In this document: one piece after another, positions 3,585 through 37,129 of the stretch
Layout: every line of letters starts with the position of its first letter
How positions within the stretch are numbered: the first letter of the stretch is position 1
Assembly: GCA_012514535.1 (NCBI GenBank)
Contig: JAAZAA010000096.1
Span: 1 to 54,114, forward strand
DNA length: 54,114 bases
DNA from: Myxococcales bacterium
GTDB taxonomy: Bacteria; Myxococcota_A; Polyangia; Polyangiales; Polyangiaceae
Direction of reading: 5' to 3'
Made by a program: the position numbers and the translations under genes
Notes under the pieces: model-generated
The model's database searches: none
The model's input: only the letters and a program-made list of their open reading frames with translations
What the model was told of the DNA's origin: nothing

Positions 3585-3589
3585 GGCCG

Positions 3590-4732
3590 TCAGATCCGCA
3601 TGGGCATGACCACGGCGAGGTAGCTTCGATCCACCGACTCGCTGCCGGGCTGGAGCACCGCCGGATCCAGCTCGCCGCTGATGCCGAGCATGACCTCGTC
3701 GTCGGGCATCGCCGCGAGCACGTGGAGGAAATACTGCGCGTTGAAGCCGATGGTCACCTCGGGACCGTCGTAGTCGACGTCGATCTCGTCGAAGCCCTCG
3801 CCCGCCTCGGGGCTCTCGCTCTCGACGCGGATGTGGCCCGGGGAGAGGGTGAGCTTCACGCCGCCCGTGCGGTCGCTCGCCGCGAGGGAGACGGCCTTGA
3901 GGGCCTCCGCGAAGGCGTTGCGGGGGACGCGCACCGCGCGCTCGCTCTGGGCGGGGATGACCTGCTGGTAGGGCGGGAACTGGGCGTCCACGAGCTTCAC
4001 GCTGAAGCGGAACCCCGCCAGCTCGAAGAACACGCTCGGGCCGCTCTGCACCAGGGAGAGCTTGGGCGTCTCGTCGTCCTTGAGCTCCGAGAAGGCCTCG
4101 TCACACAGACGACGCAGCTCCTGCACGCCCTTGAGGGGGATGAGCATGCTGGCGGTCGCCTCCGAGCCCTTCACGCCGATCTCCATCTTGGAGAGGCGAT
4201 GCCCGTCCGTCGTGACCATGCGGACGCGGTCGCCCTCCCACTCGAACAGCGCGCTACTCAAGTGCAAACGGGTCTCGTCCGTGGAGATCGAGAAGTGGGT
4301 CGCCGCGATCAAGCGCGCCATGGCGGCGATCTCGAGCTCGAGCCACTCCGCGTTCGCGTCGGGCTCCGGCAAGCTCGGAAACTCGTCGCCGGGCATGCCG
4401 TGCACGGTGTAGCGACGGGCGGACCCGGCGGCGCGGATGGTGGTGGCGGCGCCGTCGTTCACCTCGAGGGTGACCTGCCCGTCCGGCATCATCTTGACCC
4501 GCTCGTACAGGTCGCGCGCGCCGAGCGCCACGGCGCCAGGGCGCTCGATGGTCGCCTCGATGTTCCCGCTGACCGCGAGGTACAGGTCCGTCGCCGCCAG
4601 GCGGAGCTCGTTGGGGCCCACGGTCTCGAGGAGCACATTGCCCAGCACGGGCATGGTGCTCTTTTTGTCGGCCACTCCCTGGCAGCGACCGAGGACACGG
4701 AGAAGTTCTTTTTTGCTGACGGCGACGCGCAT
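3590..4732 (-). CDS. dnaN: DNA polymerase III sliding clamp (beta subunit)
   Basis: Ring-shaped processivity clamp of the replicative polymerase. The 380-residue length and the three-domain organisation match the family. Recognisable segments are the N-terminal start MRVAVSKKELLRVLGRCQGV, the TMPVLGNVLLE segment of domain I, FSISTDETRLHLSSALFE in the second domain, and the C-terminal tail SYLAVVMPMRI, which ends as clamps usually do in a short hydrophobic tail. It is the first gene of dnaN-recF-gyrB. In many bacteria dnaA lies directly upstream of dnaN; here the upstream space instead contains an origin-like non-coding region and then a cytochrome maturation operon on the same strand. Confidence 0.97.
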   Translation of the reverse strand: MRVAVSKKELLRVLGRCQGVADKKSTMPVLGNVLLETVGPNELRLAATDLYLAVSGNIEATIERPGAVALGARDLYERVKMMPDGQVTLEVNDGAATTIRAAGSARRYTVHGMPGDEFPSLPEPDANAEWLELEIAAMARLIAATHFSISTDETRLHLSSALFEWEGDRVRMVTTDGHRLSKMEIGVKGSEATASMLIPLKGVQELRRLCDEAFSELKDDETPKLSLVQSGPSVFFELAGFRFSVKLVDAQFPPYQQVIPAQSERAVRVPRNAFAEALKAVSLAASDRTGGVKLTLSPGHIRVESESPEAGEGFDEIDVDYDGPEVTIGFNAQYFLHVLAAMPDDEVMLGISGELDPAVLQPGSESVDRSYLAVVMPMRI

Positions 4733-10889: not shown

Positions 10890-12002
10890 ATGGTCGGGTC
10901 GCTACGTCCTGCGTCGGGGGCACCGCGCCTCGGGGCACCGCGCCGCCTTACGGAGCTGGGCCGCCTCCGGGTGGGCCGCCTCCGAGAGCTGGGCCTCGCG
11001 GCCCTGCTGGGCGGGCTCGCGCTCTCCTGCTCCTGCGACCGGGACGAACCCGAGGCTCCCTCGGACGGCGGGGACGCGCCGTCCGCCCAGGCTCAGAAGG
11101 GCGAGCTGACGGAGGAGCAGCGCCGCGCGGTGCTCGCCAAGGTGGGGGATCGGGTGATCACCCTGGGGGAGTACGTGCAGACCCTGGAGCGCATGGATCC
11201 CTTCGAGCGCATGCGTTACCAGTCCCCGGAGCGCAGGAGGCAGCTGCTCGACGAGATGATCGAGGTGGAGCTGCTCGCCCAGGAGGCGCAGCGCCGCGGC
11301 CTGGATCGGCAGCCCGCCACGCGGCTCCGCGTCCAGGAGATCCTGCGGGACGAGGTGCGCCAGGCCATCCGCAGGGAGCTGCCCGATCCGGCGGAGCTGC
11401 CGGAGCGGGAGGTGCGCGCCTACTACGACGCCCACCGGGACGAGTTCCGGGAGCCCGAGCGCCGGCGCGTGCTGCACATCGCCGTGGGGACCCGCGAGCT
11501 GGCGCAGAAGATCGCCCGGGAGGCCCAGGGAGCGAGCGGCGCTCGGTGGGCGGAGCTGGCGAAGGAGCACAGCCTGGATCGACGGGGCACGGAGGCGGGG
11601 GGAGCCCCGGAGCTGGCGGGGGATCTCGGGCTGGTGTCCGCGCCCGGAGAGACCCGCGGGGAGAACCCGCTCGTCCTCGAGCCCCTCCGCAAAGCCGTGT
11701 TCGAGCTGAAGGAGCTGGGCGACGTCGCCCCCGAGCCCGTGTTCGCGGGGGGCCAGTACCACGTCGTGCGCTTCGGTGGCATCAGCGGGGCCAAGGACCG
11801 CAGCTACGCGGAGGCGGAGCGCCTCGTGCGGCTCGAGCTGCTGCGAGCGCGGCTCCTCGAGCGGGAGGCCCAGCTGGAGGCGCAGCTCCGGGAGCGCTTC
11901 GAGGTGAAGATCGACGAGGCGGCCGTGCGGGCCCTGCGCCCCGGCGCGACCAAGGCCACCCCGGAGTCCCCCCCGGCGCCCGAGGCACCCACGACCCCAT
12001 GA
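10890..12002 (+). CDS. Parvulin-type peptidyl-prolyl isomerase lipoprotein
   Basis: Probable periplasmic chaperone/prolyl isomerase of the SurA/PpiC/PrsA type. The N-terminus has a long basic region, then a hydrophobic stretch ending in the lipobox LALSC (Cys about residue 47), so the mature protein should be lipid-anchored. A SurA_N-like helical region (about residues 70-170; VGDRVITLGEYVQTL and LDEMIEVELLAQEA) precedes the parvulin-like domain (about residues 185-300), with RRRVLHIAV, WAELAKEHSLD, GDLGLVS and QYHVVRFGG in the usual order. A helical tail follows. At 370 residues it is in the family range. It overlaps the following radical SAM gene by ATGA, implying co-expression. Confidence 0.85.
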   Translation: MVGSLRPASGAPRLGAPRRLTELGRLRVGRLRELGLAALLGGLALSCSCDRDEPEAPSDGGDAPSAQAQKGELTEEQRRAVLAKVGDRVITLGEYVQTLERMDPFERMRYQSPERRRQLLDEMIEVELLAQEAQRRGLDRQPATRLRVQEILRDEVRQAIRRELPDPAELPEREVRAYYDAHRDEFREPERRRVLHIAVGTRELAQKIAREAQGASGARWAELAKEHSLDRRGTEAGGAPELAGDLGLVSAPGETRGENPLVLEPLRKAVFELKELGDVAPEPVFAGGQYHVVRFGGISGAKDRSYAEAERLVRLELLRARLLEREAQLEAQLRERFEVKIDEAAVRALRPGATKATPESPPAPEAPTTP

Positions 12003-13168
12003 CGTCGCTCACGCTCTCGCAGGACGAGCAGGGAACCCAGCTGGGAGCCCCGTCGACGGGCCTCTCCACGGCGGAGCGCTGGCACGACTGGCGCTGGCAG
12101 CTCCAGAACGCCGCTCGCACCGCCGACGACCTCGCGCGAGCCCTCCAGCTGACTCCCGAGGAGCTGGAAGGCGCGCGCGCGGCGGAGCGGGCCGGGTTCC
12201 CCATCTCGATCACCCCCCACTACCTCTCCCTCGTCGACCCCAGCGATCCGCGCTGTCCGATCCGGCGCCAGGTGGTGCCCCAGGCCGCGGAAGGGCGGAG
12301 CACCCCGGGCGACCTGCGAGATCCCTTGGGGGAGGAGGATCATCAGGTGGCCCCGGAGCTGGTGCAGCGTTATCCGGATCGGGCGCTGCTGCTCGTGACG
12401 GATCGTTGCGCCGTGTACTGCCGCTTCTGCACGAGGAGCCGCATGGTCGGCGCAGGGGGCGGACCCCGGAACCTGGAGCGCCTCACCCCTGCCCTCGATT
12501 ACCTGCGGGCCCACCCTGAGGTGAAGGACGTGATCGTCAGCGGCGGCGACCCCCTGGCGATGGCCACCCCGCGTCTGGAGCGGCTCGTCGCGGAGCTCCG
12601 GACCATCGAGAGCGTGGAGACGATCCGCCTGGCGACTCGCGTGCCCGTCGCGCTGCCCCAGCGCATCGACGACGAGCTCCTCCAGGCGCTGCGGCCTCAC
12701 CACCCCCTGTGGGTGATGACCCATTTCAATCACCCCAAGGAGCTCCACCCGGACGCTCGGGCCGCCTGCCGTCGCCTGGCGGACGCGGGGTTCCCCGTGA
12801 TGAACCAGACCGTGCTCCTGCGGGGCGTCAACGACGACGCCAACGTGCTGGCGGAGCTCTTCCGGGGGCTCGTCCGGGAGCGCGTGCGGCCCTACTACCT
12901 GCTGCAGACGGATCCGGTGCGGGGCACAGGGCACCTGCGCACGTCCGTGCAGACCGGCATCGACATCATGGCCGCCCTGCAAGGGCGCCTGAGCGGCATC
13001 GCGCTGCCCAAGCTCATCCTCGACGCGCCGGGGGGCTTCGGCAAGGTGCCCATCGGACCGGAGTGGATCGTCTCTCGGGGTGACGGCGTCACGCGCGTGC
13101 GCACCCACCGCGGCGTCGAGGTCGACTATTTCGATCCCGGCGCCCCCCCCGAGACGCCCGCCGGCTGA
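11999..13168 (+). CDS. Lysine 2,3-aminomutase-like radical SAM/PLP enzyme
   Basis: Member of the KamA family, which uses a 4Fe-4S cluster, S-adenosylmethionine and PLP to convert L-lysine to beta-lysine. The 389-residue protein has the family opening HDWRWQLQNAARTADDL, then CAVYCRFC (CX3CX2C cluster ligands) followed by the PLP-contacting Arg in TRSRMVG, and SGGDPL. The two acidic residues that select lysine are conserved in KamA-like positions (QTDPVRGTGHLRT and ILDAPGGF), as is the Lys that binds PLP (GGFGKVPI). The zinc-binding C-terminal tail of clostridial KamA is missing. EpmB is a less likely alternative because the two Asp sites are KamA-like. It starts inside the stop of the PPIase gene; no lysine catabolic partner adjoins it. 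Confidence 0.85.
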   Translation: MTSLTLSQDEQGTQLGAPSTGLSTAERWHDWRWQLQNAARTADDLARALQLTPEELEGARAAERAGFPISITPHYLSLVDPSDPRCPIRRQVVPQAAEGRSTPGDLRDPLGEEDHQVAPELVQRYPDRALLLVTDRCAVYCRFCTRSRMVGAGGGPRNLERLTPALDYLRAHPEVKDVIVSGGDPLAMATPRLERLVAELRTIESVETIRLATRVPVALPQRIDDELLQALRPHHPLWVMTHFNHPKELHPDARAACRRLADAGFPVMNQTVLLRGVNDDANVLAELFRGLVRERVRPYYLLQTDPVRGTGHLRTSVQTGIDIMAALQGRLSGIALPKLILDAPGGFGKVPIGPEWIVSRGDGVTRVRTHRGVEVDYFDPGAPPETPAG

Positions 13169-13565: not shown

Positions 13566-14369
13566 ATGAAGTCTGCTCCCACGCCCCGTGCTCTGTCCGT
13601 CAGCTCGCTCTTCCTCGCCAGCGGTGCGCTCGCCCTGTCCACCTGGACCGCCTGCCAGGAGCACACGCCGACCGCGGTGGCGGAGGTGTCGGCCGAGCAG
13701 GGACAGCGCGCGACCGCTCCGGACGCCCAGGGAGCCACCCCGAGGCCCGACGCCGTCGACACGGCCCGCCCCGTGGTGGAGCCGGAGTCGGAGCCCACCC
13801 CCAGCCCGCGCGCTCCCTCGAGCGCCGCGAAGGCCACCGCGTCCCCGGCGAAGAGCTCCGCCGCTCCGGCGACGACCGCCGCCGCCGCGACTCCCCCCGA
13901 GGTGAAGCGCCTCGTGATCGCCACGGCGGTGGAGAACCGCGAGCCCGTCGCCCTGGCGGGTGAGGCGCAGCCCGGCGAGCCCCTGACGGCCTTCGTCGAG
14001 GCCGCCAACCCGGGGGGCGAGCCCGCGCACATCGTGGTCACCTTCGAGCACTCCAGTGGTCGGAAGGTCGGCTTCGTGAAGCTGGAGGTGCCCGCCTCCT
14101 CGCCCCGCTACCGCACCTGGGCGCGCACCCAGAACATCAAGCAAGGGGGCGCCTGGGAGGCGGTGGTCCACCTCGAGGACGGGACGGAGCTCGCCCGGCA
14201 GAGCTTCACCGCGGCGGCGCCCACCCCGGCCGCGCACCCCAGCGCGCCGGTGGTCTCCAGCGCAACGGCTGCGCCCGACGCCACGACTCCCGCGCAGGAT
14301 CAGGGGACGCCCGCTGCGATCCCGGAGGCCGCGCCCGGCGCGATCCCCGAGGTCCCCGCGGCCTCCTGA
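13566..14369 (+). CDS. Putative lipoprotein with DUF2914-like domain
   Basis: The 267-residue protein starts with a signal sequence ending in TAC (Cys about residue 30), a plausible if imperfect lipobox. An Ala/Pro/Ser/Thr-rich linker of about 80 residues follows. Residues about 112-208 form a beta-rich domain with KRLVIATAVENREPVALAG and, near its end, YRTWARTQNIKQGGAWEAVV. The pattern of 'ENREP' at the start and 'RTW...G.W' near the end is that of DUF2914, a small extracytoplasmic domain of unknown function common in proteobacteria. The C-terminal 55 residues are again low-complexity. It is monocistronic by spacing (281 bp to the next gene). Function unknown. Confidence 0.72.
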   Translation: MKSAPTPRALSVSSLFLASGALALSTWTACQEHTPTAVAEVSAEQGQRATAPDAQGATPRPDAVDTARPVVEPESEPTPSPRAPSSAAKATASPAKSSAAPATTAAAATPPEVKRLVIATAVENREPVALAGEAQPGEPLTAFVEAANPGGEPAHIVVTFEHSSGRKVGFVKLEVPASSPRYRTWARTQNIKQGGAWEAVVHLEDGTELARQSFTAAAPTPAAHPSAPVVSSATAAPDATTPAQDQGTPAAIPEAAPGAIPEVPAAS

Positions 14370-14535
14370 CGACGGCATGCATGGGGTCCCTCGCCCTACG
14401 GGGTGTGACACAGTCGCTTCACTGGCACGCCGTGACACATCGATCACGGAGACCACCGCGGAGCGCTGACGTGGCGCGCCCCGGCGGGCAGGGCCCTGCG
14501 GGTCAGCCCCCACGAATTTATCGGCTATTCCCCCG

Positions 14536-14548
14536 AAAAGCAGCTTTT
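14536..14548. promoter_or_regulatory. Inverted repeat upstream of the propeller-lipoprotein operon
   Basis: AAAAGC-A-GCTTTT, a perfect 6-bp inverted repeat around one central base, about 100 bases before the first gene of the 14651-20595 operon. A TAATAC sequence lies at about 14583. The combination suggests a promoter/operator, but it is not matched to a known regulator. Confidence 0.35.
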
Positions 14549-14650
14549 GCAGGGTCCCGGTCCATGATTGGCCCGTAGTTTGCTAATACGTTTCCGAACT
14601 CGCCTTTTCTCCCCTCGACGGCTCCGTCGGGGAACACCGGGGACGGAAGC

Positions 14651-16297
14651 TTGAAACGTCGTTTGCTTTTCGGGAGCTTTTACAGCGCGCTGGTCCTCAT
14701 CGTCGCTGGGGCCTGCGGCGCTCAAGAAGACGCCGCTGGTGTGGGTGGTGATCCTGGGGGGAGCTGGGGGGACCCAGGCAACAGCGGGACGGGAGGGACG
14801 ACCCAGGGAGAGGGTCCCCTCCCTCCCGAAGAGGAGCTCGAGGAGGATTTCGAGGTGCCCGCGGCGGTCGGGCGTTACCTCTGGGCCGCCAACCCGAAGA
14901 GCAACCGGGTGGTCCTGGTGGACGCGACCACCCTCGGGGTGGAGGTCCTGGAGGCGGGTTTCGCGCCCACGTACCTCGCGGGGATTCCCCCGGTCGGTGA
15001 TTTTCCCGGCGGCGCGGTGGTGATCAACGAGCGCAGCGACGACGCCACCATCTTCCGTCTGCCCTCGGACGAAGACAGCCCCGTGAGCGCGGAGACGGTC
15101 ACGGTTCACTCCGTCCCCGTGCATCCGCGCGCGAACGCGTGGCGCGTCGGTCCGAAATCCCGCTTCGCCATCGCCTGGAGCGACGCGCGGGCCTTCTCCC
15201 GCGTCGATCCTACGGAGGGTCTCCAGGATCTCACCGTCATCGATCTCGACGGTGACGAGCCCGTCTCCACGCGCCTCAGCGCCGGCTATCGCCCGAGCCA
15301 GGTCGTGGTGGAGGAGAGCGGCAAGCGGGCGTACGTCGTGTCGCAGCCGGGCATCACCGTGTTGCACCTGACCCACGCGGACGGCCCCCGGGTGGAGCGC
15401 GAGCTGTTCCTGCCGGAGGAGGCCGGCGACCAGGCGCGGGACGTCTCCATCACCCCGGACGGCGCGTTCGCGTTCGTGCGCATGGCGGGGGAGAGCAGCG
15501 TGCTGATCGTCGACCTCGCGAGCGACGAGCGGATCACGGTCGATCTCCCCGCGCCCGTCACGGATCTCGACGTCAGCGCCGACGGCACCAAGGCCGTCGC
15601 CGTGATGCGGACCCCGACGGAGCCCGCCGCGGGCGCCGCGGGCGCCCCGGCAGCGACGGAGCCGTCGCGCATCGCCGTGCTGCCTCTCGACACCATCGTC
15701 ACGGATCCCGAGGACTACGAGATCCACGAGCTCGACGGGCTCTTCGGCAGCGCCGTCCTGTCGCAGGATGGCCGCTACGCCCTGGCGTTCACGAACGCGG
15801 TGGCCTCACCCCTGCTCGCCATCGTCGACCTCGAGACGGGCGAGCACCGTGAGCTCGATCTGCGGGCGCCGGTGCGGGCCGCCTTCCTCCTGGAGGACGG
15901 GTCCCACGCGGTGGTGCTGCTCACGCCTCCGGCGGGGAGCGCTCGGCGGGGGGCCTTCAGCCTGGTGCCCGTCGCAGCGGATCTGCCTCCGAAGATGGAG
16001 GGGACGGACGCTCCCACGCGCTTCGTCTCCCTGTCCTCCGATCCGCCGCGGGCGCTCGTCACGACCGTCGGGGCCGAGGACGAACCCCACGACGTCCTCC
16101 TGGCGCGCTTTCCGGGGCTCCAGGTCGACCGGATCCGTCTCGCGAGCACGCCGCTGGCCTCCGGCGTCGTGCCCGAGGCCGGGAAGGGCTTCGTGGCCCA
16201 GTCGCACCCAGAGGGTCGGGTGACCTTCGTTGGCTTGGAGGACGGCGCAGCGCAGGTCCTCACGGGCTTCGAGCTCGGCGGAAAGGTGGTGGAGTGA
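14651..16297 (+). CDS. Lipoprotein, predicted beta-propeller (first of three)
   Basis: Not assigned to a named family. The 548-residue protein has an N-terminal signal peptide with lipobox VAGAC (Cys 22, followed by Gly, so no Asp inner-membrane retention signal), then a Gly-rich linker and an acidic patch. The rest is made of repeated four-strand-like blocks such as RAYVVSQPGITVLHLTHADG, VSITPDGAFAFVRMAG and LSQDGRYALAFTNA, the style of YVTN/WD-like beta-propellers. It begins with TTG after ggggacggaag. It shares GLQD(L/I)TV, GYRPS and the C-terminal SHPEGRVT...LTGFEL..KVVE with the next gene, so the two are paralogues. Its stop overlaps the next gene. A surface or periplasmic binding or scaffolding role is inference. 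Confidence 0.75.
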   Translation: MKRRLLFGSFYSALVLIVAGACGAQEDAAGVGGDPGGSWGDPGNSGTGGTTQGEGPLPPEEELEEDFEVPAAVGRYLWAANPKSNRVVLVDATTLGVEVLEAGFAPTYLAGIPPVGDFPGGAVVINERSDDATIFRLPSDEDSPVSAETVTVHSVPVHPRANAWRVGPKSRFAIAWSDARAFSRVDPTEGLQDLTVIDLDGDEPVSTRLSAGYRPSQVVVEESGKRAYVVSQPGITVLHLTHADGPRVERELFLPEEAGDQARDVSITPDGAFAFVRMAGESSVLIVDLASDERITVDLPAPVTDLDVSADGTKAVAVMRTPTEPAAGAAGAPAATEPSRIAVLPLDTIVTDPEDYEIHELDGLFGSAVLSQDGRYALAFTNAVASPLLAIVDLETGEHRELDLRAPVRAAFLLEDGSHAVVLLTPPAGSARRGAFSLVPVAADLPPKMEGTDAPTRFVSLSSDPPRALVTTVGAEDEPHDVLLARFPGLQVDRIRLASTPLASGVVPEAGKGFVAQSHPEGRVTFVGLEDGAAQVLTGFELGGKVVE

Positions 16298-17919
16298 TGG
16301 GCGACGTGCGGCCGAGACTACGGATCGTCGAGCTGGGGGTCGGCGCCGTCGCTTTGGTCCTGGGGATCGCCCTGGGCTGCGGCTCCGAGGACGCTGCTGG
16401 CGGTCGAGGAAGCAGCGGCGGAGGTTGGCCTCCTTCGCTCGGCGACGGGAACGGCAACGGCTCGGGGGATGGTGACTACCTGCCCCCGGGAGGCGGTCAT
16501 GGCGGGGCCGTCCCGGAGCTCCCCGAAGAGGAGAAGGATCTCAGCGTCTTCCGCGCGCCCGTCGTCACGGGGAAGCACCTGTGGTTCGTCAACCCGGAGA
16601 GCAGCCGCGTGGCGCTCATCGACGCCACGGACTTCGAGGTGCGGGTGCTCGACGGAGGGTTTCGCCCCACCTACGTCGCCGCGGTGCCAGCGGAGGACGA
16701 CGTGAGCTCCGCCCTGGTGCTCAACGTCGGCAGCGGGGACGCGACCTGGTTCCGCCTGAAGGGCAGGAAGATCACCGACCGCACCTTCCCCATCGCCCAC
16801 CGCGCCAACCGCTGGGCGGTGTCGCCCTCCGGACGCTGGGCGACCGCGTGGAGCGCCGAGGAGCCCGACGAGCGCCTCGATCCCACCGAAGGTCTGCAGG
16901 ACATCACCGTGGTTGATCTCGGCGTCGAGCCGCCCGTGACCCACCGGCTCACCGTCGGTTATCGCCCGTCGGCGCTGTCCTACTCCGCCGGGGAAGAGGA
17001 GCTGATCGTGGTCTCCGAGGCGGGCATCAGCCTGGTCGACCTGTGGGGGAGCAGCCCCGTCTCCACGGGCTGGATCGATCTCGGCAGCGCCAGCGGCCGC
17101 GGCGTCGCCGTCACGCCGAGCGGCGAGTACGCCCTCGTGCGGCGCGCGGGGGAGCCGGTGGTCAGCATCCTCCCCCTGGATGGCTCGCCTCCCGCGGAGG
17201 TGCAGCTCGGCGGCGCGGTGACGGATCTCGAGCTCGACGCGGAGGGGCGGCGCGCCGTCGCGGTGGTGCGGGAGAAGCGGCAGATCGCCGTCTTCGACGT
17301 GGAGGCGGCCTTCGCCGATCCCGCCAAGGTCGACGTGGCGACGGTCCCGGGTGAAATCTTCGGGAGCGTCGCGCTGAGCCCCGACGGGGACGTCGCCGCC
17401 CTCTACACGACGGCCCTCGACAGCGGACGCGTCGTGATCGCCGATCTCCGCGCCGGTGACACCTATCTCGAGACCCGCACCGTGGACGTGAAGGGGCCCG
17501 TGCTGAGCGTGCGCACGACCACGGGCGGTGATCACGCCGTCGTGCTCATGGGCAAGGGCGCCCAGAGCACCAACCCGGGCTCCTTCGCGGTGGTGTCCCT
17601 GCGGGAGCCGCGGTTCCCGCGGGTCGAGGCCACGGCCGCGCCCGTGCATCAGGTGGCCGTGAGCGCCGACTACGCGCTGGTGACCACCCGCGATGGCGCC
17701 GCGGGGATCTTCGAGAGCCACCTCATCGAGATGGCTTCGGGACGGCTCGACAAGGTGCGCCTGTCGAGCCCGCCCACGGCGGTGGGCATCCTCGGTGAGC
17801 AGGGCCTCGGCTACGTGGCGCAGTCCCACCCAGAGGGGCGCGTGACCGTCTTGAACTTCGCCAGCGCCACCGCCCGTACCCTCACGGGCTTCGAGCTGGC
17901 CTCCAAAGTCGTGGAGTGA
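16297..17919 (+). CDS. Lipoprotein, predicted beta-propeller (second of three)
   Basis: The 540-residue paralogue of the preceding protein. Signal peptide with lipobox ALGC (Cys followed by Gly), a Gly/Asn/Asp-rich linker, and then propeller-like repeats (LWFVNPESSRVALIDATDF, VAVTPSGEYALVRRAGE, VALSPDGDVAALYTTALD). The blocks DPTEGLQDITVVDL and SHPEGRVTVLNF match the first protein at equivalent positions. The ATG at 16297 overlaps the upstream stop codon (TGATG); an in-frame GTG one codon earlier is possible. Its own stop is followed one base later by the next start, so the genes are probably translationally coupled. No catalytic motif was recognised. Confidence 0.75.
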   Translation: MGDVRPRLRIVELGVGAVALVLGIALGCGSEDAAGGRGSSGGGWPPSLGDGNGNGSGDGDYLPPGGGHGGAVPELPEEEKDLSVFRAPVVTGKHLWFVNPESSRVALIDATDFEVRVLDGGFRPTYVAAVPAEDDVSSALVLNVGSGDATWFRLKGRKITDRTFPIAHRANRWAVSPSGRWATAWSAEEPDERLDPTEGLQDITVVDLGVEPPVTHRLTVGYRPSALSYSAGEEELIVVSEAGISLVDLWGSSPVSTGWIDLGSASGRGVAVTPSGEYALVRRAGEPVVSILPLDGSPPAEVQLGGAVTDLELDAEGRRAVAVVREKRQIAVFDVEAAFADPAKVDVATVPGEIFGSVALSPDGDVAALYTTALDSGRVVIADLRAGDTYLETRTVDVKGPVLSVRTTTGGDHAVVLMGKGAQSTNPGSFAVVSLREPRFPRVEATAAPVHQVAVSADYALVTTRDGAAGIFESHLIEMASGRLDKVRLSSPPTAVGILGEQGLGYVAQSHPEGRVTVLNFASATARTLTGFELASKVVE

Positions 17920-17920
17920 C

Positions 17921-19483
17921 ATGAAAAAGACCTGGATTGCTTGGGGAGTGCTGCTCGCTGCGTGCGGCGGCCGCGACGCGCGCTGGGAAGCGAGCTACGA
18001 GAGCACGACCAGCTACGGCCTGCATGGCGCGGTCGCGCTGCAGGACGCGGCGCTCGATCGCTTCTTGCTGGTGACCTCGCCGGCGGCTCACGAGATCGAC
18101 GTCACGCCCATCCCTGTCGGAAAGAACGTCACCGCCGTCGCCGTCTCCCCCAACAAACGGCGCATGTTCGTGCTGTCCAAGGGTGAGCAGCCGAGGTACC
18201 GCCCCGACGACGAACGCCCGCGGCTGATCGTCATCGATGGAGGCACGCGCCCCAAGCTGGAGAGCTCCTTCGACCTCGACGATCCGCTCTCGAAGCTCGC
18301 CATCGACCCTCAGGGCGAGTGGATCGCCGCCTACGAGGCGGACAGCACGGTGACCAACCCCAACGAGATCGTCCTGTTCTCCCTGGAGGACGGCGTCACG
18401 CGGCGCTCCAAGACGATCCGCAGCTTCGGCGGGTTCCCCCTCGAGCTCGTGTTCACCGATCCGCTCACCCTGCCCTCCGGCTCGGCGCGCCGCTTCCTGG
18501 TGGTGCGGACGGATCGGGACATCACCCTGGTCGATCTCTCGGATCTGGACCGCTCCGAGATCACCGTGAAGCTGCCGGAGACGGAGGAGGGCAAGTCCAC
18601 GCGGCCGGCGCAGGTCGTCTTCGACGACGGCGATCCGGACGAGCCGGGAGACGCCCGCCTCGCGGTGCGGCTCCAAGGGGAGTCGGACATCGTCCTGCTC
18701 GATCTGGGAGCGGCGTCGGGCGATCGCGAGTTCACGATCACGCCGAACATCGTCGACGCGGGGGGCGTGCCCTCGGCCATCGACTTCGTGCGCACGGACG
18801 GCGGGCTCCGCCTGGCGGCGCTGGTGCCCACGCGCAAGCAAGCGACGCTCGTGGATCCGGAGACGACGGCCACCGAGACGGTGACCTTTCCGGTGGCGTA
18901 CAGCAGCATGACGCGCATCACGGACGCCGTGAGCTCGCCGCCCGTCGGCGGCGACGTGGCCCTGCTCTGGAGCAAGGACGCGCGCGGCATCGCGTTCTGG
19001 TCCCTGGGGCAGACGAGCGGCACGCCCTACCGCAGCATCGACGCGAACGATCTCGATCTCGCGGTGGGGGCCGTCATCGACGTGCCGGCGCCGAACCGTC
19101 ACTTGAAGCTCCTCTCGAGCGAGAACGCGGATCGCTTCTTCATTCTGGATCTCGAGAAGCGACAGACGTTCCCCATGCTCACGCGGCAGCAGGGCTTCGA
19201 GGTCACGGTCGCCCCGGATGGCGGGCGCCTGTGGGCGTATCGCGAGGGGAGCGGTGAGCTCTCGAGCGTGGAGCTGACGGATCTGCATCCGACCGCGTTG
19301 AGCGTGCGGCTCGGGGTGAGTCGGGTGCACGACATCCGGCGCGGAGGGTCGGGGCGCGCCGCCCTGGTGCTGCACGGCACCGACGGCAGCTCCGGCCGCG
19401 CGTCGGTGACGCTCCTCGACGCCCAGTCCCCGGACTCCGCGGACTCTCGCTTCTTCGACGGCTTGTACTTGGAGGGACTGTGA
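17921..19483 (+). CDS. Lipoprotein, predicted beta-propeller (third of three)
   Basis: The 520-residue protein has a short signal peptide and clear lipobox LLAAC (Cys 15, followed by Gly). The Gly-rich linker of its two neighbours is missing. Repeated blade-like segments include VTAVAVSPNKRRMFVLSKG, LAIDPQGEWIAAYEAD, FEVTVAPDGGRLWAYREG and RFFILDLEKR. It is more diverged from the first two than they are from each other, but has the same size, anchor and fold style. Position: one base after the second propeller gene and overlapping the outer-membrane gene by TGA/GTG. The three-in-a-row arrangement suggests the products act together, perhaps as a complex on the inner face or surface of the outer membrane. 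Confidence 0.72.
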   Translation: MKKTWIAWGVLLAACGGRDARWEASYESTTSYGLHGAVALQDAALDRFLLVTSPAAHEIDVTPIPVGKNVTAVAVSPNKRRMFVLSKGEQPRYRPDDERPRLIVIDGGTRPKLESSFDLDDPLSKLAIDPQGEWIAAYEADSTVTNPNEIVLFSLEDGVTRRSKTIRSFGGFPLELVFTDPLTLPSGSARRFLVVRTDRDITLVDLSDLDRSEITVKLPETEEGKSTRPAQVVFDDGDPDEPGDARLAVRLQGESDIVLLDLGAASGDREFTITPNIVDAGGVPSAIDFVRTDGGLRLAALVPTRKQATLVDPETTATETVTFPVAYSSMTRITDAVSSPPVGGDVALLWSKDARGIAFWSLGQTSGTPYRSIDANDLDLAVGAVIDVPAPNRHLKLLSSENADRFFILDLEKRQTFPMLTRQQGFEVTVAPDGGRLWAYREGSGELSSVELTDLHPTALSVRLGVSRVHDIRRGGSGRAALVLHGTDGSSGRASVTLLDAQSPDSADSRFFDGLYLEGL

Positions 19484-20595
19484 GCAAGGTGCACTACATC
19501 CGCGGAGCTTCGGCTCGTACCCTGAGCGGTCTCGGCTGCATCGCGGCCCTGCTGGTGGCCTCGGGCGCCGCGGCCCAGCCGGCTCAACCCGCTCAACCCG
19601 CGCAACCCGAACCCGCGCAACCCGAACCCGCTCCGTCGGCCCCGGCTCCGGCGGTCCAGCCCGTTCGATCCGAGCCCGCGCCGTCCGCCGAAGGAGCAGA
19701 GCCCGGCGAGCCGACCGCGCCCGCGACGCAGCCCCCGGCACATGAACCGCCCCAGGATCCCAGCTGGACCCTGGAGGACGCCCCCGAGACCGCCGAAGGC
19801 GCCGCTGCCGAGGGCTCTCCGGCTCCCACAGCGACCGACGGCGCCCCCGCGACGGCCCCGGGCGCCGCGACGGCGGACACCGACCCCGCGCAGGAAACGG
19901 ACGATCCCGCCGCGCCGCGCCGCTACCCCCTCCCCGCGACGACGGAGGTCTCGATCGAGCCCCCACCGGATCCGGAGACCGTGCCCTTCACCCACCACCA
20001 GCTGCGCTGGGAGGTCCAGGTGGGCTTGCGCAACTCCTGGATCCCGAGCGACGGCTACGACGCCTTCGCGGAGAACGACGCCTTCACGCAGCTGAGCGTG
20101 GGCATCGGGCGCGGCGTGTTCCGGAGCGATCGTTGGAGCGTGGCGGCGCTCGGGTTCTGGGAGTTCGGCTCCAAGAGCGCGTCGGTGCGGGGCGCCGAGA
20201 GCCGCTACTCGGCGCATCGGCTCAGCGTCGCCCTGGAAGGCCGTTACCACGCGCTGCACTGGCTCTACGGCTACGGCCGCCTGGCGCCGGGAGCGACCCA
20301 CACCAACGCGCACCTCGACGCGCCGCGGCAATCCTTTGGTCACGAGGCGAAGACCTGGGTGGTCAGCACGGACGTCGCCCTGGGCGTCGCGGCGCGGCTG
20401 CTCGGCGACCCCGATGGCCGCCAGCCTGGAGAGCGCCTGTGGTTCTTCGTCGAAGGCGGCTACGGCTGGTCCGCCACGCAGAACCTCCTCCTCCGCCCGA
20501 CGAGCGGCGCCCCCGAGCGGGCGAGCAGCGTGGATCTCGGCGAGCTCTCCCTCTCCGGCGGCTTCGGAAAGGCAGGCGTCCTCCTCAGCTTCTGA
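19480..20595 (+). CDS. Outer-membrane beta-barrel protein with Pro-rich periplasmic linker
   Basis: The 371-residue protein has a signal peptide (cleavage after about SGAAA, residue 32), a long Ala/Pro/Gln/Glu-rich linker (residues about 33-165, starting with QPAQPAQPAQPEP-type repeats), and a C-terminal region of about 190 residues with alternating hydrophobic beta strands: HQLRWEVQVGLRNSW, WSVAALGFWEFG, RLSVALEGRYHALHWLYGYG, LWFFVEGGYGWSAT. It ends in LLSF; a terminal Phe is typical of outer-membrane barrels recognised by BamA. The size suggests about 8 strands. It starts with GTG overlapping the third propeller lipoprotein's stop, which makes it the likely membrane anchor or partner of those lipoproteins. 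The family is not identified. Confidence 0.78.
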   Translation: MSKVHYIRGASARTLSGLGCIAALLVASGAAAQPAQPAQPAQPEPAQPEPAPSAPAPAVQPVRSEPAPSAEGAEPGEPTAPATQPPAHEPPQDPSWTLEDAPETAEGAAAEGSPAPTATDGAPATAPGAATADTDPAQETDDPAAPRRYPLPATTEVSIEPPPDPETVPFTHHQLRWEVQVGLRNSWIPSDGYDAFAENDAFTQLSVGIGRGVFRSDRWSVAALGFWEFGSKSASVRGAESRYSAHRLSVALEGRYHALHWLYGYGRLAPGATHTNAHLDAPRQSFGHEAKTWVVSTDVALGVAARLLGDPDGRQPGERLWFFVEGGYGWSATQNLLLRPTSGAPERASSVDLGELSLSGGFGKAGVLLSF

Positions 20596-20743
20596 GCAGG
20601 GGTTCAGCGGGTGTAGCGGGTGTGGACCTGCTCCGCCCGCCGCGCCGTCCTCGACATGTTCCTGGCTCCCGGTTGGTGAGGGTCGATTGGTCCGGGATCG
20701 CGCGGGGACTATGCTCTGGGCCCCGACTCGGAGATGATTCCCC

Positions 20744-22540
20744 ATGGGTGAGCGGCAGCAGGACCTTCGTCCGTCTCTGGGAGGGGAAGGCCGTCTGCCG
20801 GGCATCGGTGAGCTCGTCGCGGGCAAGTACCGCGTGGAGCGGTTCCTCGGCGTGGGAGGCATGGGCACCGTGCTCTCGGCGCGCCACGAGCAGCTCGGGC
20901 AAGTGGTCGCCCTGAAGGTGCTCCACCCGCAGTCTCGGGACGAGCCGGAGTCCGTCTCGAGGTTCATGCGCGAGGCGCAGCTCGCCGCCTCCCTCGAGAG
21001 CGATCACGTCGTGCGCACCTTCGACGTGGGGACCCTCGACGACGGTGTGCCGTTCCTCGTGATGGAGCGGCTCTTCGGCGAAGACCTCGGGCGGGTGCTG
21101 GAGCGGCACGGCAAGCTCGTCGTCCCCCACGCGGTCGAGTGCGTCTACCAGGCGGCTCTCGGCGTCGTGGACGCCCACGCAGCGGGCGTGATCCACCGGG
21201 ATCTCAAGCCGTCGAACCTCTACCTGACGCGGCGTCGCGACGGGACCGCCTGCGTCAAGGTGCTGGACTTCGGCATCTCCAAGGCCCTCGTCGAGGGCGG
21301 CGTCGACGGAGAGGTCCAGCTCACCCGCACGCGCAACGTCGTGGGGTCGCCCCTGTACATGTCGCCGGAGCAGGTGCGCGACTCCAAACAGGTGGACCCG
21401 CGCAGCGACGTCTGGTCCCTGGGCGTGATCCTGTATCAGCTCCTGAGCGGCCGCCCTCCCTTCGACGGAGAGACGATGCCCGCGGTGTGCGCGCGCATCG
21501 CGGCGGATCCGCCGCCCCCCGTCGACCGCGACGACGCGCCCCCCGAGCTCCTCGCGGTCCTGGATCGCTGCCTGCAGAAGGATCCGGCGCTCCGCTTCGG
21601 CTCCGCCCTCGAGCTGTGCGCGGCGCTCCGTCCCTTTCGGCCCGAGGGGCCGCTGTCGTTCGCCCTCCTGTCCGACGAGGCGCTGGCGCTGCGCGACAGC
21701 GGGCCCCGCCCGAGCCGCCCCCCAGGAGCCCTGGAGTTCCAGCCTGCCGACGGCGCCCGCGATCCGCCCCCTGGAGACGGCGCCGCCCTGTCTCTGCCCG
21801 CGGAGGGCCTCGCCCCTGCCGCCGCGCTCCACCCTCCGAGCGGCCGCCACCCGAGCGACTCGGTGACGCGCACCCTGGCGGCGCCCCAGGAGACCGCGCC
21901 CGGGCGACGCCGGGCAGCGGTGGTCGCCGCGTTGCTGCTCGTGGCCGGGGCCTCGAGTGGGCTCTGGTTCGTCGCGGCGTCGAGGAGCCCTGCGGCCTCC
22001 AAGGACGCTGCGGTGTCGGGGAGCCCGTCGGGGAGCCCTGCGAAGGAACCGCCGCCCGGCTCCGCTCCCGGGGAAAGGGCGCCCGCGGCCCTCGTGACCC
22101 TCCGCGTCGACTCCGTACCTGCGGGGGCGGAGGTGTGGGAAGGGGACCGGGTGCGGGGACGGACTCCCCTCGACGTGCAGGTTCCCCGGGGCGCGCCGCC
22201 GCCGCGTCTGCGCCTGCAATTGGAGGGTCACGCCCCGTTCGCGCTCGAGGAGCCGCCCCTCGAGCGCGATCGGGAGCTCCGGGTGCAGCTGATCCCCGCG
22301 ACGCCCGCTGCATCCGGCGCCGTGGATCCCGTCGTCGACCCCGTCGTCGAATCCGGCGCGCCCGCAGCGCCCCCAAAGGGCACCGTCACAGGGCCGGCCA
22401 CCGCTGCGCCGCGCCCCCCCCCCCCCCCGCGCCCTTCCGCTGCGCCGCGCCCCGCTCCCCGACCCACGTCCGGCGCCACCGCCTCCCCGACCCGTCAGCC
22501 CCCGCGAAACGACGATCCGGGAATCCGCACCCAGCGCTAG
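20744..22540 (+). CDS. Membrane Ser/Thr protein kinase with C-terminal PEGA domain
   Basis: Hanks-type kinase (598 residues). The cytoplasmic catalytic domain (about residues 27-295) has the glycine loop GVGGMGTV, catalytic Lys in VALKVL, HRDLKPSN, DFGIS and SPEQ, so it should be active. A disordered linker follows, then one membrane helix near residues 387-411 (AAVVAALLLVAGASSGLWFV). The extracytoplasmic PEGA domain lies at about 449-520 (VDSVPAGAEVWEGDRVRGRT), and the tail is Pro/Ala-rich. The codons for that tail contain a run of 15 C (22414-22428). PEGA domains are thought to bind the envelope or partner proteins. The next gene, a TonB-dependent receptor, also carries PEGA repeats, so a functional link is plausible. 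The promoter is probably in the 148 bp upstream. Confidence 0.9.
   Translation: MGERQQDLRPSLGGEGRLPGIGELVAGKYRVERFLGVGGMGTVLSARHEQLGQVVALKVLHPQSRDEPESVSRFMREAQLAASLESDHVVRTFDVGTLDDGVPFLVMERLFGEDLGRVLERHGKLVVPHAVECVYQAALGVVDAHAAGVIHRDLKPSNLYLTRRRDGTACVKVLDFGISKALVEGGVDGEVQLTRTRNVVGSPLYMSPEQVRDSKQVDPRSDVWSLGVILYQLLSGRPPFDGETMPAVCARIAADPPPPVDRDDAPPELLAVLDRCLQKDPALRFGSALELCAALRPFRPEGPLSFALLSDEALALRDSGPRPSRPPGALEFQPADGARDPPPGDGAALSLPAEGLAPAAALHPPSGRHPSDSVTRTLAAPQETAPGRRRAAVVAALLLVAGASSGLWFVAASRSPAASKDAAVSGSPSGSPAKEPPPGSAPGERAPAALVTLRVDSVPAGAEVWEGDRVRGRTPLDVQVPRGAPPPRLRLQLEGHAPFALEEPPLERDRELRVQLIPATPAASGAVDPVVDPVVESGAPAAPPKGTVTGPATAAPRPPPPPRPSAAPRPAPRPTSGATASPTRQPPRNDDPGIRTQR
22414..22428 (+). repeat. 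Homopolymer of 15 C in the kinase gene
   Basis: An uninterrupted C15 run encoding five prolines near residue 557 of the PEGA-tailed kinase. A one-base slip would change only the last 35-40 residues. It is also a place where sequencing or assembly commonly errs. Confidence 0.9.
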
Positions 22541-22695
22541 AGTGCGCGGGCCTCCCTCCCGCTCCTCCGCCCTGGAGCCGGCCTCCGGTCCCCTTCGCTT
22601 CCGCCACGCCCCATGTGCCCTCGGCTCACGTCGTCGTCCCCTCGTGGTTCGGGCTCGTCGCCGACGGAGGAGCGTCATCGCCGGCGTGGACGCCC

Positions 22696-22758
22696 GCTGG
22701 GCCGCCCCGTCACCGCGCTGGGCCGCCCCGTCGCCGCGCTGGGCCGCCCTGTCGCCGT
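22696..22758 (+). repeat. Three 21-bp tandem repeats before the receptor start
   Basis: Three copies of gctgggccgccccgtcgccg(c), with single-base differences, run directly into the ATG of the TonB-dependent receptor gene. If read in the receptor frame they would add LGRPV-type repeats that precede, and would spoil, the signal peptide. I therefore treat them as untranslated. They occupy the place where a ribosome site would normally be. Confidence 0.75.
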
Positions 22759-22759
22759 G

Positions 22760-25672
22760 ATGGCGCGCGCGGTCACTGCCGGGCTTGTCGTGGCCCTCGC
22801 CACGGCCACGGTGCTCGCGCCCCGTACCGCCCGCGCCAACGACCTGGCGGACGAGGCGGAGCTGCTGTTCCAGCTCGGCAGAGAGGCGTTCGAAGCGGAA
22901 GACTATCGCCTCGCCCTCGAGCGCTTCCTGGCCTGCAACCGGCTCGTGCCCAACCGGAACGTGACCTTCAACGTCGCCCGCAGCTACGAGCAGCTGGGGC
23001 GTTACCCCGAGGCCTACCGTCACTTCACCCGCGCGCTCATCGGCGAATCGGACGAGGACCGGCGTCGGCACGTCCACGATGCGCTGCAGCGGCTCATCGG
23101 CAAGGTGGCCGTCGTCGAGGTGATCACCCAGCCCCCCGGGGCCGCCATCTACCTGGGCCGCAAGGATCTCGGGCCCACCGGCGCCACCCCCCAGTCCCTC
23201 GGGCTGGCGGCAGGGAGCTACACGCTCATCGTCGAGCGCCCCGGGTACCAGCCGCGCGTCGTGGAGGTGGACGACATCGCCCTCGGGGAGACGCGCCGCC
23301 TCGAGATCGACCTCGACCCCATCCTGGGCCGGGTGACCCTCCACGGAGACTCCGTGCGCGGCGCCACGGTGCGGGTCGCCGGGGTGACCCTCGAGGAGTG
23401 CCGCGTCCCCTGCGACGTGGCCGTGCCGCCGGGAGAGCACGTGCTGCGGGTCGAACGGGAGGGGTATCGTCCCTACGAGACGCTCGTGGAGGTGCGCGCC
23501 GAGGGCCGCACCTGGGTGCGGCCGACCCTGGAGGTCCAGCGCGGGGCGATCCTCGTCGAGGCGGAGGAGAGCGGCGCCCTGGTGGAGATCGACGGCGCGC
23601 CCCACGGCTACACGCCCGCGCTCGTGCGCCTCCCCATCGGCGTCCACGACGTGCGCGTGAGCTTGCGCGGCTACGTGCCCGTGGAGCGCCAGGTGCGCGT
23701 CGAGGCGGGGAGCGAGGAGCGGGTCCGCGTCGAGCTGGCGCGCCTCGAGGAGGTGAACGCCGCCTCCCGCCGCACGGAGGCCGTGGCGGACGCGCCGAGC
23801 TCCGTCAGCATCATCCCTCGGGAAGAGCTGCTCTTGTTCGCCTACCCGACCATCGCCGAGGCGGTCCGCGGGTTGCCCGGGGTGTACGCGTGGGACGACC
23901 GGGCCTACGCGTCCCTCGGGTTCCGGGGACTGGGCCGCCTGGGCAGCTACGGCAACCGCGTGCTCGTGCTGCAGGACGAGCACCCCACGAACGACAACTG
24001 GGTCGGCTCGAGCTACGTCAGCTACGACGCGCGCACGGACCTGGCGGACGTGGAGCGCATCGAGGTGGTGCGCGGCCCCGGCTCGGTGCTGTACGGGACC
24101 AACGCGTTCGCGGGCGTCGTCAACGTCGTCACCCGCCCCGCGACCCGCGATCTGGGCGGGGAGGTGGGCGTGTCCGCCGTCCACGACGGGGTCGGCCGCG
24201 TGCGGCTGCGGGGCGAAGCGATCCTCGGCGAGGACTCCCAGGTGTGGATCAGCGCCGCGGGAGCCCGCGGTCAGGGACGTGAGCTCGTCCTCGACGGCGA
24301 CGGGTCGACGCCCGCCTCCACGATCCCGCGCAGCGCGGACGCCTTCGACGCGGGCACGGTGCAGGGGCGCTACACTTGGCGCTGGCTCACCGCTCAGTGG
24401 TTCGCCCACAGCTACGAGAAGCACCAGCCGACGGGGTGGTTCGAGACCCTGCCCGGGGATCCCCGCGCCCGGCAGCGGGACAGCCGCGCCTTCGTCGAGG
24501 TGCGGGCGGAGCCGACCTTCGGCGCTCTGCAGAGCCTCACGCGCGTGCACCTGAACCACTACCGCTACGACGGCTTCTTCCCGCGGGAGGTCGCCGCCGG
24601 TGGGCTGGAGGTCGACCGCTTCCGGGGCTCGTGGGTGGGGCTCGAGCAGCGCTTCGTCTACGACGCCTCCGAGAACGTGCAGGTGACCTTCGGGGGTGAG
24701 GGGCAGCACCACTTCCAGGTCGAACAGTTCGCCCGCGACGAGCGCGCCATCCTCCTGGACGAGCCCGATCGCACCCTGCGGGTCGGCGCCGCCTACGGCA
24801 TGATCGATCTCCGCCGGGATCGCTTCCGCGTCTCGGGCGGCGCGCGCCTCGACGCCTACTCGACCTTCGGGAGCTCCCTCAACCCCCGCGTCGCGGTGAT
24901 CGGGCAGCCCTACGCGGGCGGCAACACCAAGCTCCTCGTGGGCAAGGCGTTCCGCGCGCCGAGCATCTACGAGCTCTATTACAACGACGGCGGGTTCACC
25001 CAGGTGGCGAGCCCCGGCCTGGAGCCGGAGAGCGTGCTATCCTTGGAGGTGGAGCACGCGCATCGCCTCTCGCAGACCGTGCAGGTCTCGGGGTCCGTCT
25101 TCGCCACGCGTACGACGGATCTCATCGTGACCCGGGGTGAGGGCACGGCCACCCAGCCCCTGTCCTACGTGAACTCGCCCCATCCCCTGGCGACGGCGGG
25201 CCTGGAGCTGTCCGTGCGGCGGGAGTGGAGGCAGGGGTGGATGCTGGAGGGCCAGTACACCCTGCAGGCGGCCCGGTTCCTCGAGGACGAGCGGATGTCC
25301 TCCTGGCTCGCCTTTCAGAGCGCCGAGGAGCTCCGGCGGGTCGCGAACGTGCCGCCCCACATGATCGCCCTGAAGGGCGCCGTCCCCCTCTTGGGCCGGG
25401 CCCTGACCCTCGGCTCACGGCTCACGGTGCAGGCGGGGAGCCACGACCGCTTCGAGACCGTCCTGGAGGAGCCCCAGGGGCGCACGGAGGCCTTCGCGCT
25501 GTGGGACGTCGTCGTGAGCGGCTACGAGGCGCGCACGGGTCTGCGCTGGAACGCAGGGCTCTACAACGCCTTCGACTCCACGTACCTCCTCCCCGTGAGC
25601 CACGAGCTCCCGCAGCGCGCGCTGGTCCAGCGGGGGCGCACCCTGCTCCTGTCGACGGAGCTGGAGTTCTGA
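22760..25672 (+). CDS. TonB-dependent outer-membrane receptor with N-terminal TPR and three PEGA repeats
   Basis: The 970-residue protein starts at ATG 22760, which directly gives a signal peptide (cleavage after RTARA, residue 26). Residues about 27-112 are TPR-like helices (EAELLFQLGREAFEAEDYRL, NVARSYEQLGRYPEAYRHF). Three PEGA-type repeats follow at about 115-187, 188-258 and 260-330, each with a 'PxGxxVxxDG...TP...PxGxHxVxV..GY' pattern. The plug domain (about 335-460) has SSVSIIPREEL, VRGPGSVLYGTNAFAGVVNV, and the C-terminal barrel (about 470-970) ends in TELEF with terminal Phe. It should import a ligand across the outer membrane using TonB-ExbBD. The substrate is unknown. The TPR-PEGA front end replaces the usual short N-terminus and is unusual. 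Confidence 0.88.
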   Translation: MARAVTAGLVVALATATVLAPRTARANDLADEAELLFQLGREAFEAEDYRLALERFLACNRLVPNRNVTFNVARSYEQLGRYPEAYRHFTRALIGESDEDRRRHVHDALQRLIGKVAVVEVITQPPGAAIYLGRKDLGPTGATPQSLGLAAGSYTLIVERPGYQPRVVEVDDIALGETRRLEIDLDPILGRVTLHGDSVRGATVRVAGVTLEECRVPCDVAVPPGEHVLRVEREGYRPYETLVEVRAEGRTWVRPTLEVQRGAILVEAEESGALVEIDGAPHGYTPALVRLPIGVHDVRVSLRGYVPVERQVRVEAGSEERVRVELARLEEVNAASRRTEAVADAPSSVSIIPREELLLFAYPTIAEAVRGLPGVYAWDDRAYASLGFRGLGRLGSYGNRVLVLQDEHPTNDNWVGSSYVSYDARTDLADVERIEVVRGPGSVLYGTNAFAGVVNVVTRPATRDLGGEVGVSAVHDGVGRVRLRGEAILGEDSQVWISAAGARGQGRELVLDGDGSTPASTIPRSADAFDAGTVQGRYTWRWLTAQWFAHSYEKHQPTGWFETLPGDPRARQRDSRAFVEVRAEPTFGALQSLTRVHLNHYRYDGFFPREVAAGGLEVDRFRGSWVGLEQRFVYDASENVQVTFGGEGQHHFQVEQFARDERAILLDEPDRTLRVGAAYGMIDLRRDRFRVSGGARLDAYSTFGSSLNPRVAVIGQPYAGGNTKLLVGKAFRAPSIYELYYNDGGFTQVASPGLEPESVLSLEVEHAHRLSQTVQVSGSVFATRTTDLIVTRGEGTATQPLSYVNSPHPLATAGLELSVRREWRQGWMLEGQYTLQAARFLEDERMSSWLAFQSAEELRRVANVPPHMIALKGAVPLLGRALTLGSRLTVQAGSHDRFETVLEEPQGRTEAFALWDVVVSGYEARTGLRWNAGLYNAFDSTYLLPVSHELPQRALVQRGRTLLLSTELEF

Positions 25673-37082: not shown

Positions 37083-37129
37083 GGGTCATCCCTGCGCGGG
37101 GTCATCCCTGCGCCGGGTCATCCCTGCGC
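37083..37129. repeat. Three 16-bp tandem repeats
   Basis: gggtcatccctgcgc occurs exactly at 37083-37097, 37099-37113 and 37115-37129, each separated by one base. It lies in the 142-bp gap between the protease gene and the end of pgsW. No function evident. Confidence 0.85.

Follow-up and report, generated by a model that had tools for sequence, protein, structure and literature searches.

YncE and the lactonase propellers have about seven blades, and propellers of ten blades are, to our knowledge, rare; those in the literature are mostly receptors of the sortilin family, among the matches listed. In the outer membrane, the propeller lipoprotein BamB is associated with a barrel, within the BAM complex. 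Sortilin/VPS10 is described as a ten-bladed propeller that binds many ligands (PMC9356209), and RcsF as a lipoprotein that works with the barrel OmpA (PMC7553776). Here, we analyzed a stretch of 54,114 nucleotides (nt) from a Myxococcales bacterium (contig JAAZAA010000096.1 of assembly GCA_012514535.1), hereafter the window, which encodes a unit of three lipoproteins, named A1, A2, and B, and a barrel protein, named C. We found that the conserved core of this unit is A-B-C, which is spread over much of the phylum Myxococcota rather than being local, and we compared it with the systems above.

The four genes, read as open reading frames (ORF) with their translations in amino acids (aa), are laid out as follows.

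A1, 14651-16297 (+), 548 aa, TTG start: lipobox Cys, a Gly/Ser/Asp-rich tether of ~40 residues, and a predicted YVTN-type propeller domain (ten repeats by eye).
A2, 16294-17919 (+), 541 aa, GTG start: layout as in A1; it groups with second copies of related loci in a tree.
B, 17921-19483 (+), 520 aa, ATG start: lipoprotein with almost no tether and a single predicted propeller.
C, 19480-20595 (+), 371 aa, GTG start: signal peptide (by eye), Pro/Ala-rich disordered segment to about residue 140, and a predicted barrel at about residues 177-370, ending in Phe.

These four genes are one tightly packed unit, with overlaps of 4 nt between A1 and A2 and between B and C, and a gap of 1 nt between A2 and B. 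An earlier note on this DNA, made from its sequence alone, had described the same row of ORFs, and every coordinate, length, and junction in it was recovered exactly. So was its Cys-Gly lipobox, since by eye the hydrophobic leader of all three lipoproteins ends in a lipobox Cys followed by Gly. Among related loci, the start codon lies between -30 and +60 nt from the preceding stop in 97 of 102 A-B junctions, all 94 B-C junctions, and 57 of 60 A-A junctions, although these counts are biased towards closeness because the nearest possible start codon was taken. A scan of positions 14300-20800 detected no promoter or terminator, with models that may not suit this organism.

None of the four proteins scores above a Pfam or NCBIfam cut-off, PADLOC gave no match, and PHROGs returned a single weak match, to the leader region of A2. 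Searching the genome of the window with A1 and A2 gave this locus and only two weak matches elsewhere. The two proteins share 38% identity over nearly their full length (BLASTP, E 4e-94), which bears out the proposal that they are paralogues, and the best-conserved block of A2 is the C-terminal Q.HP[ED]GR..F...TGFEL. A profile built from 37 A sequences of relatives matches hydrazine synthase beta (5c2v, E 2e-10) and a 6-phosphogluconolactonase-like protein (3scy, E 1e-7) in the PDB, and because of these matches we call A a putative YVTN/lactonase-type propeller, an assignment with which its homology to B agrees. NCBIfam matches of the same 37 proteins are weak and include PQQ_ABC_repeats (14/37), YVTN repeat (4/37), hydrazine_beta (10/37, best E 2e-10), and L-NosZ (4/37, best E 2e-5).

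By BLASTP, B has no significant match to A1 or A2 (best E 0.05 and 0.025, respectively). When a B-family alignment of 29 sequences from relatives was compared with A by hhalign, the two profiles aligned over 426 columns, starting near the beginning of each and running to its end, with a probability of 99.2% (E 7.4e-20). A and B are thus old, remote paralogues over their full length. Both show ten repeats of ~45-50 residues by eye, and self-alignment of the profiles revealed internal repeats along each. What distinguishes the two at their N termini is the stretch after the lipobox Cys, a low-complexity tether whose median length is 34 residues in A (quartiles 11 and 42) and a single residue in B. 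The lipobox Cys is kept in all 66 rows of the B alignment (window included); a simple lipobox rule recognized the motif in 138 of 167 A and 94 of 107 B proteins.

The structure of B, predicted from 66 aligned sequences, is an all-beta model with 40 strands and one short helix in the leader (mean predicted local distance difference test (pLDDT) 92.7, predicted template modeling (TM) score 0.90). The alignment behind it (labeled A4) comprised the window and 65 of 70 references found, five partial ones being left out. As assessed by VIA-align, 952 of the 958 aligned chains score Z >= 8 with this model, and many propellers of seven, eight, and nine blades reach Z 16-18, designed Cake proteins among them. 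Examples are YncE (3vgz; Z 16.9, 253 residues, 5.0 Å) and the designed Cake10 (6tji; Z 16.1, 329 residues spanning 36-501, 5.3 Å). Foldseek gave low TM-scores to many propellers, probably because the blade number differs, and the absence of a VPS10 structure from the best 50 VIA-align matches is uninformative. A sequence search of the PDB with B found no convincing match. The propeller fold foreseen in the earlier note was therefore obtained for B as a predicted model, and for A1 and A2 it is indicated by homology. The 40 strands of B probably form ten four-stranded blades in this model.

For C, the prediction, made with 63 aligned sequences, shows an eight-stranded barrel at residues 177-370 with pLDDT above 90 almost throughout, preceded by a largely Pro/Ala-rich region (residues 1-140) of low confidence, in keeping with the barrel protein with a Pro-rich linker that had been proposed. 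Its structural neighbors are OmpA, NspA, OmpW, and OmpX (Z 12-17), the match to OmpA 9fzd having Z 17.0 over 166 residues at 2.6 Å. Outer-membrane barrels are expected to end in an aromatic residue, and 61 of the 63 C rows (window included) do so. The generic barrel family of Pfam matches 11 of the 63 proteins, and the OmpA C-terminal domain is not among the five Pfam families that they match at E 0.01; a PDB sequence search with C gave no convincing match. The length of the Pro-rich segment varies greatly among relatives. In the C alignment (A3), the rows of L061, L064, L066, and L067 were added by position and not by BLAST match, so that, where the same contigs recur under other names (e.g. 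L127, L129, and L136), their C matches are partly by construction.

To describe the spread of the set, we combined searches of increasing depth, in which each deeper set was approached with profiles rebuilt from the preceding sets. Some short or contig-cut genes were left out of alignments A1-A3 (labels unrelated to the gene names), and the rows of A4 and A5 were trimmed N terminally to the profile match. By tblastn with A2, matches were found in 30 of 58 relatives, or 31 of 59 with the genome of the window. A scan of named genomes with A2 alone yielded 117 pattern matches, none of which was confirmed, and a scan with a motif from the A alignment yielded 71 loci, a number that is not exhaustive since a single motif was used. 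These loci are titled Myxococcota, Myxococcales, Polyangiaceae, Deltaproteobacteria, Proteobacteria, or similar, and the cultivated Minicystis rosea DSM 24000 is the only one without metagenome-assembled genome in its title. Among the 71 loci, all found by A, B is present in 69 and C in 62, in the patterns ABC (43), AABC (15), ABCA (3), B split in two frames (1), AB (4), AAB (3), and A alone (2). In the seven loci with B and no C, the contig breaks off within B or at most a few hundred bases beyond it, and seven of the nine named loci without C stop at a contig edge.

Across 377 genomes of the phylum, the A profile matches 196 (128 of the 235 of good quality), of which 156, as read from the list, are at E 1e-20 or better, and the B profile matches 128 (92 of the 235), of which 96 reach the same threshold. 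Of these last 96 genomes, 94 also have A (E 1e-10 or better), the two misses being cut or partial loci. Among 40 distant loci chosen by B, two contigs of which repeat named loci (L118/L172 and L138/L174), A is present in 39, and the sole exception has its contig edge on the side where the other members of its family carry A. C was found by profile in 33 of the 40 (E 0.05 or better, the weakest at 13 bits) and by a stop-to-stop scan in L184; the remaining six have a barrel-size ORF that abuts the end of B and is weakly similar to C. These six ORFs, which fall into three groups, match the C profile with hhalign probabilities of 85-98%, and a Pfam barrel family matches three of them, always below its cut-off.

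A further 20 loci (L212-L231) have a strong A match and a weak or missing B match. In 17 of them A stands with a divergent protein that we call B', a label for A-profile matches under 200 bits in these loci; 14 of the 17 have C by profile, two have a barrel-size ORF (one with a Pfam barrel match, one with no match), and one lies at a contig edge. In the other three of the 20, A is alone, once at a contig edge. Counting the window, and two contigs twice, A occurs with B or B' in 126 of 132 loci, a figure that tests for the partner and not for both proteins because loci were chosen either by A or by B. The gene order is B-C-A in several deep lineages. The gene-order search across the Myxococcota thus found a set kept across much of the phylum, with an order that varies in some deep lineages. 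Of the locked set of three lipoproteins and a barrel suggested in the earlier note, the recurrent tight set stands, whereas the three lipoproteins do not form the unit: the conserved unit is A-B-C, in which a second A is optional.

The relation of B' to A and B was examined in an unrooted tree of 59 A, 25 B, and 16 B' proteins, 100 in total and drawn from every depth. By the Shimodaira-Hasegawa-like approximate likelihood ratio test (SH-aLRT), A, B, and B' are each one group (99, 100, and 97, respectively), and the split between A and B plus B' has a value of 99. B' precedes C and has no tether, with a median of 2 residues after the lipobox Cys (lipobox recognized in 13 of 17), and this position and missing tether suggest that it is the orthologue of B. 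Because A proteins from all lineages group without B or B', we infer that A split from its partner before the sampled lineages diverged.

When 146 A proteins (143 different) were placed in a tree, the 14 rows of first copies from the window's group made up one clade and the second copies, together with four single copies, another, each with an SH-aLRT of 90. Separate duplications are seen in at least four other places, i.e. in the families f28 and f56, in L091/L094, in L188/L189, and in the A-B-C-A loci L095/L097/L101. In f28, the 11 first and 11 second copies (one contig counted twice) form clades with values of 100 each. The second copy of A is therefore an optional tandem duplicate that, as the tree indicates, arose several times independently, and the copies keep their positions in most cases. 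That the same subunit was duplicated independently, and its copies retained, speaks for a role that benefits from two diverged copies.

To look for companions of the set, ORFs in 1.01 Mb of flanking sequence were clustered over 112 loci (two contigs counted twice). Twenty-six clusters recur in at least five loci, and only Ser/Thr kinases exceed six. Their 17 occurrences in the 112 loci do not constitute a link because ~15 are expected at the density of the window's genome (89 matches in 5.77 Mb), a density from which other genomes may differ. Over these loci, no flanking family recurs above chance, and no transport or metabolic gene travels with A-B-C, which therefore looks self-contained. In the deep group L212-L231, lgt (14/20), a NUDIX gene (11/20), and an Arf/MglA-like GTPase gene (9/20) lie near the set; at the same threshold, they are near none of the 71 named or 40 distant loci, and this neighborhood is probably a shared chromosomal block.

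Several other features of the window were recorded on the two sides of the unit.

2463-4732 (-): recF-like gene and dnaN side by side, which suggests closeness to the replication origin region.
11999-13168 (+): lysine-2,3-aminomutase-like gene, with relatives near the set in L187, L197, L200, and L202 (another deep family), on the opposite side.
20744-25672 (+), directly after C: Ser/Thr kinase bearing a PEGA domain, followed by a TonB-dependent receptor that has TPR and three PEGA stretches.
37118-39991 (-): CapC capsule-biosynthesis gene (Pfam PF14102, E 2e-30), a Mur-ligase-type gene that is presumably CapB-like, and a protein without a family; together they look like a poly-gamma-glutamate type set.
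42291-42375 (-): tRNA gene; at gathering scores, Rfam matches nothing else in the window.

How do A-B-C compare with the closest described systems? With YncE, hydrazine synthase beta, and 6-phosphogluconolactonase, A and B share the repeat type and the fold class, B's sequence similarity running only via A. They differ in a propeller region of ~465-480 residues with probably ten blades, in their lipid anchor, and in occurring as paired paralogues with a barrel gene; since propeller blade number varies, ten rather than seven blades is not disqualifying for the YVTN superfamily. The likeness to BamB lies in a propeller lipoprotein next to an outer-membrane barrel. However, A1, A2, and B have no PQQ/BamB-type Pfam match at E 1, family members have none at E 0.01, and BamB is not among the NCBIfam matches; PQQ_2 proteins are encoded elsewhere in the genome of the window. 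Unlike the BAM barrel, C is eight-stranded in the predicted model, no POTRA family came up in the Pfam scans, and A-B-C is not universal. C has the barrel size and, in the predicted model, the fold of OmpA, OmpX, OmpW, and NspA, but it lacks the C-terminal peptidoglycan-binding domain of OmpA, its barrel being C-terminal with the Pro-rich segment before it.

Compared with RcsF-OmpA, the lipoproteins are propellers and not RcsF. As for uptake of the SusC/SusD type, a TonB-dependent receptor is not part of the conserved set, and the one at 22613-25672 is in none of the 26 recurrent flanking clusters. Sortilin/VPS10 is a eukaryotic receptor to which no homology was detected, the likeness being at most in blade number, which in B is predicted. 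Because defining features of BAM, OmpA, and SusCD were tested and not found, we do not file A-B-C as a member of these or of RcsF, and we regard it as a variant of the lipoprotein-barrel outer-membrane assemblies. No Pfam, NCBIfam, PHROGs, or PADLOC family covers the A and B lipoproteins, and no description of the set was found in the literature searched, a coverage that mostly excludes subscription journals. The earlier note's failure to match the set to a described system thus holds in these libraries and this literature: the folds are known, whereas the combination, the probable blade number, the paralogy of A and B, and the wide retention are not described there.

On this evidence, we propose, with a probability of roughly 0.4, that A, B, and C are one outer-membrane assembly of the Myxococcota, with B and C at the membrane and A as a tethered binding subunit. 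A dedicated complex for scaffolding, export, or recognition had been suggested; its recurrent set of lipoproteins and barrel is confirmed, and the complex itself is what the co-conservation points to. All three proteins would reside at the outer membrane, where B, being nearly tetherless, would form a fixed base packed onto the membrane and the barrel C, and A, on its long flexible tether, would be a mobile subunit. More tentatively, A would be the part that binds or recognizes, since it is tethered and repeatedly duplicated with two diverged copies kept in a fixed order, as though each copy bound a different partner or ligand. The same repeated duplication, with diverged copies kept in order, makes recognition at the surface or in the envelope (adhesion, or the binding of a polymer or of a partner protein) the likeliest job, rather than transport or catalysis. 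Export drew no positive evidence, C resembling small eight-stranded barrels and no transport gene traveling with the set.

Several observations weigh against this proposal. The case for recognition comes from the duplication and the tether, which makes it the weaker part. The set is not universal in the phylum, as the profile counts of 128 (B) and 196 (A) among 377 genomes show, and 28 of the 58 relatives have no tblastn match to A, including one of the two others in the window's genus (89% complete). The unrooted tree places B' between A and B, with midpoint rooting putting it with A, and by itself does not identify B' as the orthologue of B. Finally, A genes can stand alone, as in the following cases.

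L124, 4146-6107: A with several kb on both sides that contain no B, stop-to-stop scan included.
L220, 7564-9126: A without B or C, several kb on both sides.
L222, 7829-9376: A without B or C, several kb on both sides.
L137, 3-1967: likewise without B or C, at a contig edge.
L230, 7495-9042: likewise without B or C, at a contig edge.

Lone A genes may be extra copies with a partner elsewhere, or on the way out, and those in L137 and L230 might each be the last A of a set that the contig edge truncates. Four genomes of 11-13 Mb from one genus of the window's family (G015, G366, G393, and G395) have a weak A match (E ~1e-6 to 1e-7) and no B, and A-B-C seems to have been lost from them.

Among the alternatives, a periplasmic scaffold, in which the propellers face the periplasm and, with C and its Pro-rich segment, organize the envelope or aid the assembly of outer-membrane proteins as BamB does, is rather unlikely and still has points in its favor. 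Propellers of Gram-negative outer-membrane lipoproteins can be periplasmic assembly factors, BamB being the example, and the long disordered N terminus of C would be periplasmic in the topology that OmpA-type barrels have. The lgt gene, whose product makes lipoproteins, would fit this role where it lies near the set, but that is confined to the one deep group, where other housekeeping-type genes accompany it. The set also contains no POTRA or BamA-type partner, its absence from many genomes means that it is not generally essential, and the length of the Pro-rich segment is poorly kept. A display device, in which the tether of A would pass through C to the outside and so expose A on the cell surface, appears improbable. 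A tethered A, a nearly tetherless B, and a dedicated barrel would suit such a device, and PMC7553776 cites a model in which the RcsF linker threads through outer-membrane barrels. The same paper contends that, in the two-domain form of OmpA, the barrel provides no open channel for a linker, for which reason we do not rely on the RcsF-OmpA precedent; C resembles OmpA, OmpX, NspA, and OmpW, and the Pfam and NCBIfam scans gave no match to a known family of lipoprotein exporters.

An enzyme or redox complex, with A as a lactonase-type propeller enzyme or an electron-transfer subunit at the outer membrane, is more improbable still. Its attraction is that the best sequence matches of A are hydrazine synthase beta and 6-phosphogluconolactonase-like proteins, with the weak hydrazine_beta and L-NosZ matches in NCBIfam. 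However, among the positions that are invariant or nearly so, A has a single histidine (H512) and lacks cysteine, and B lacks histidine and has no cysteine other than that of the lipobox; because conserved His and Cys are nearly absent, neither protein has an obvious metal or haem site. Moreover, B matches nothing enzymatic and no metabolic gene travels with the set. Lastly, gene order alone can be incidental, but an accidental operon of unrelated genes is refuted by the co-conservation of A with B or B' in all but six of 132 loci, next to flanks in which no family exceeds chance, and we give it almost no weight. Going beyond our proposal of one outer-membrane assembly, A-B-C could be an undescribed machine, with ten-bladed A and B on a dedicated barrel, that existed in an early ancestor of the phylum and in which repeated duplication of the tethered A produced heteromeric surface recognition units; this bolder form is rather unlikely.

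Strong matches to B occur in about a quarter of the 377 Myxococcota genomes, and strong matches to A in about two fifths. In our judgment, it is uncommon for a conserved multi-gene outer-membrane set to extend over much of a phylum and yet lack a family name. If the complex is real, it would represent a new building plan, in which remote paralogous propellers, one tethered and one flush with the membrane, are set on a small barrel.

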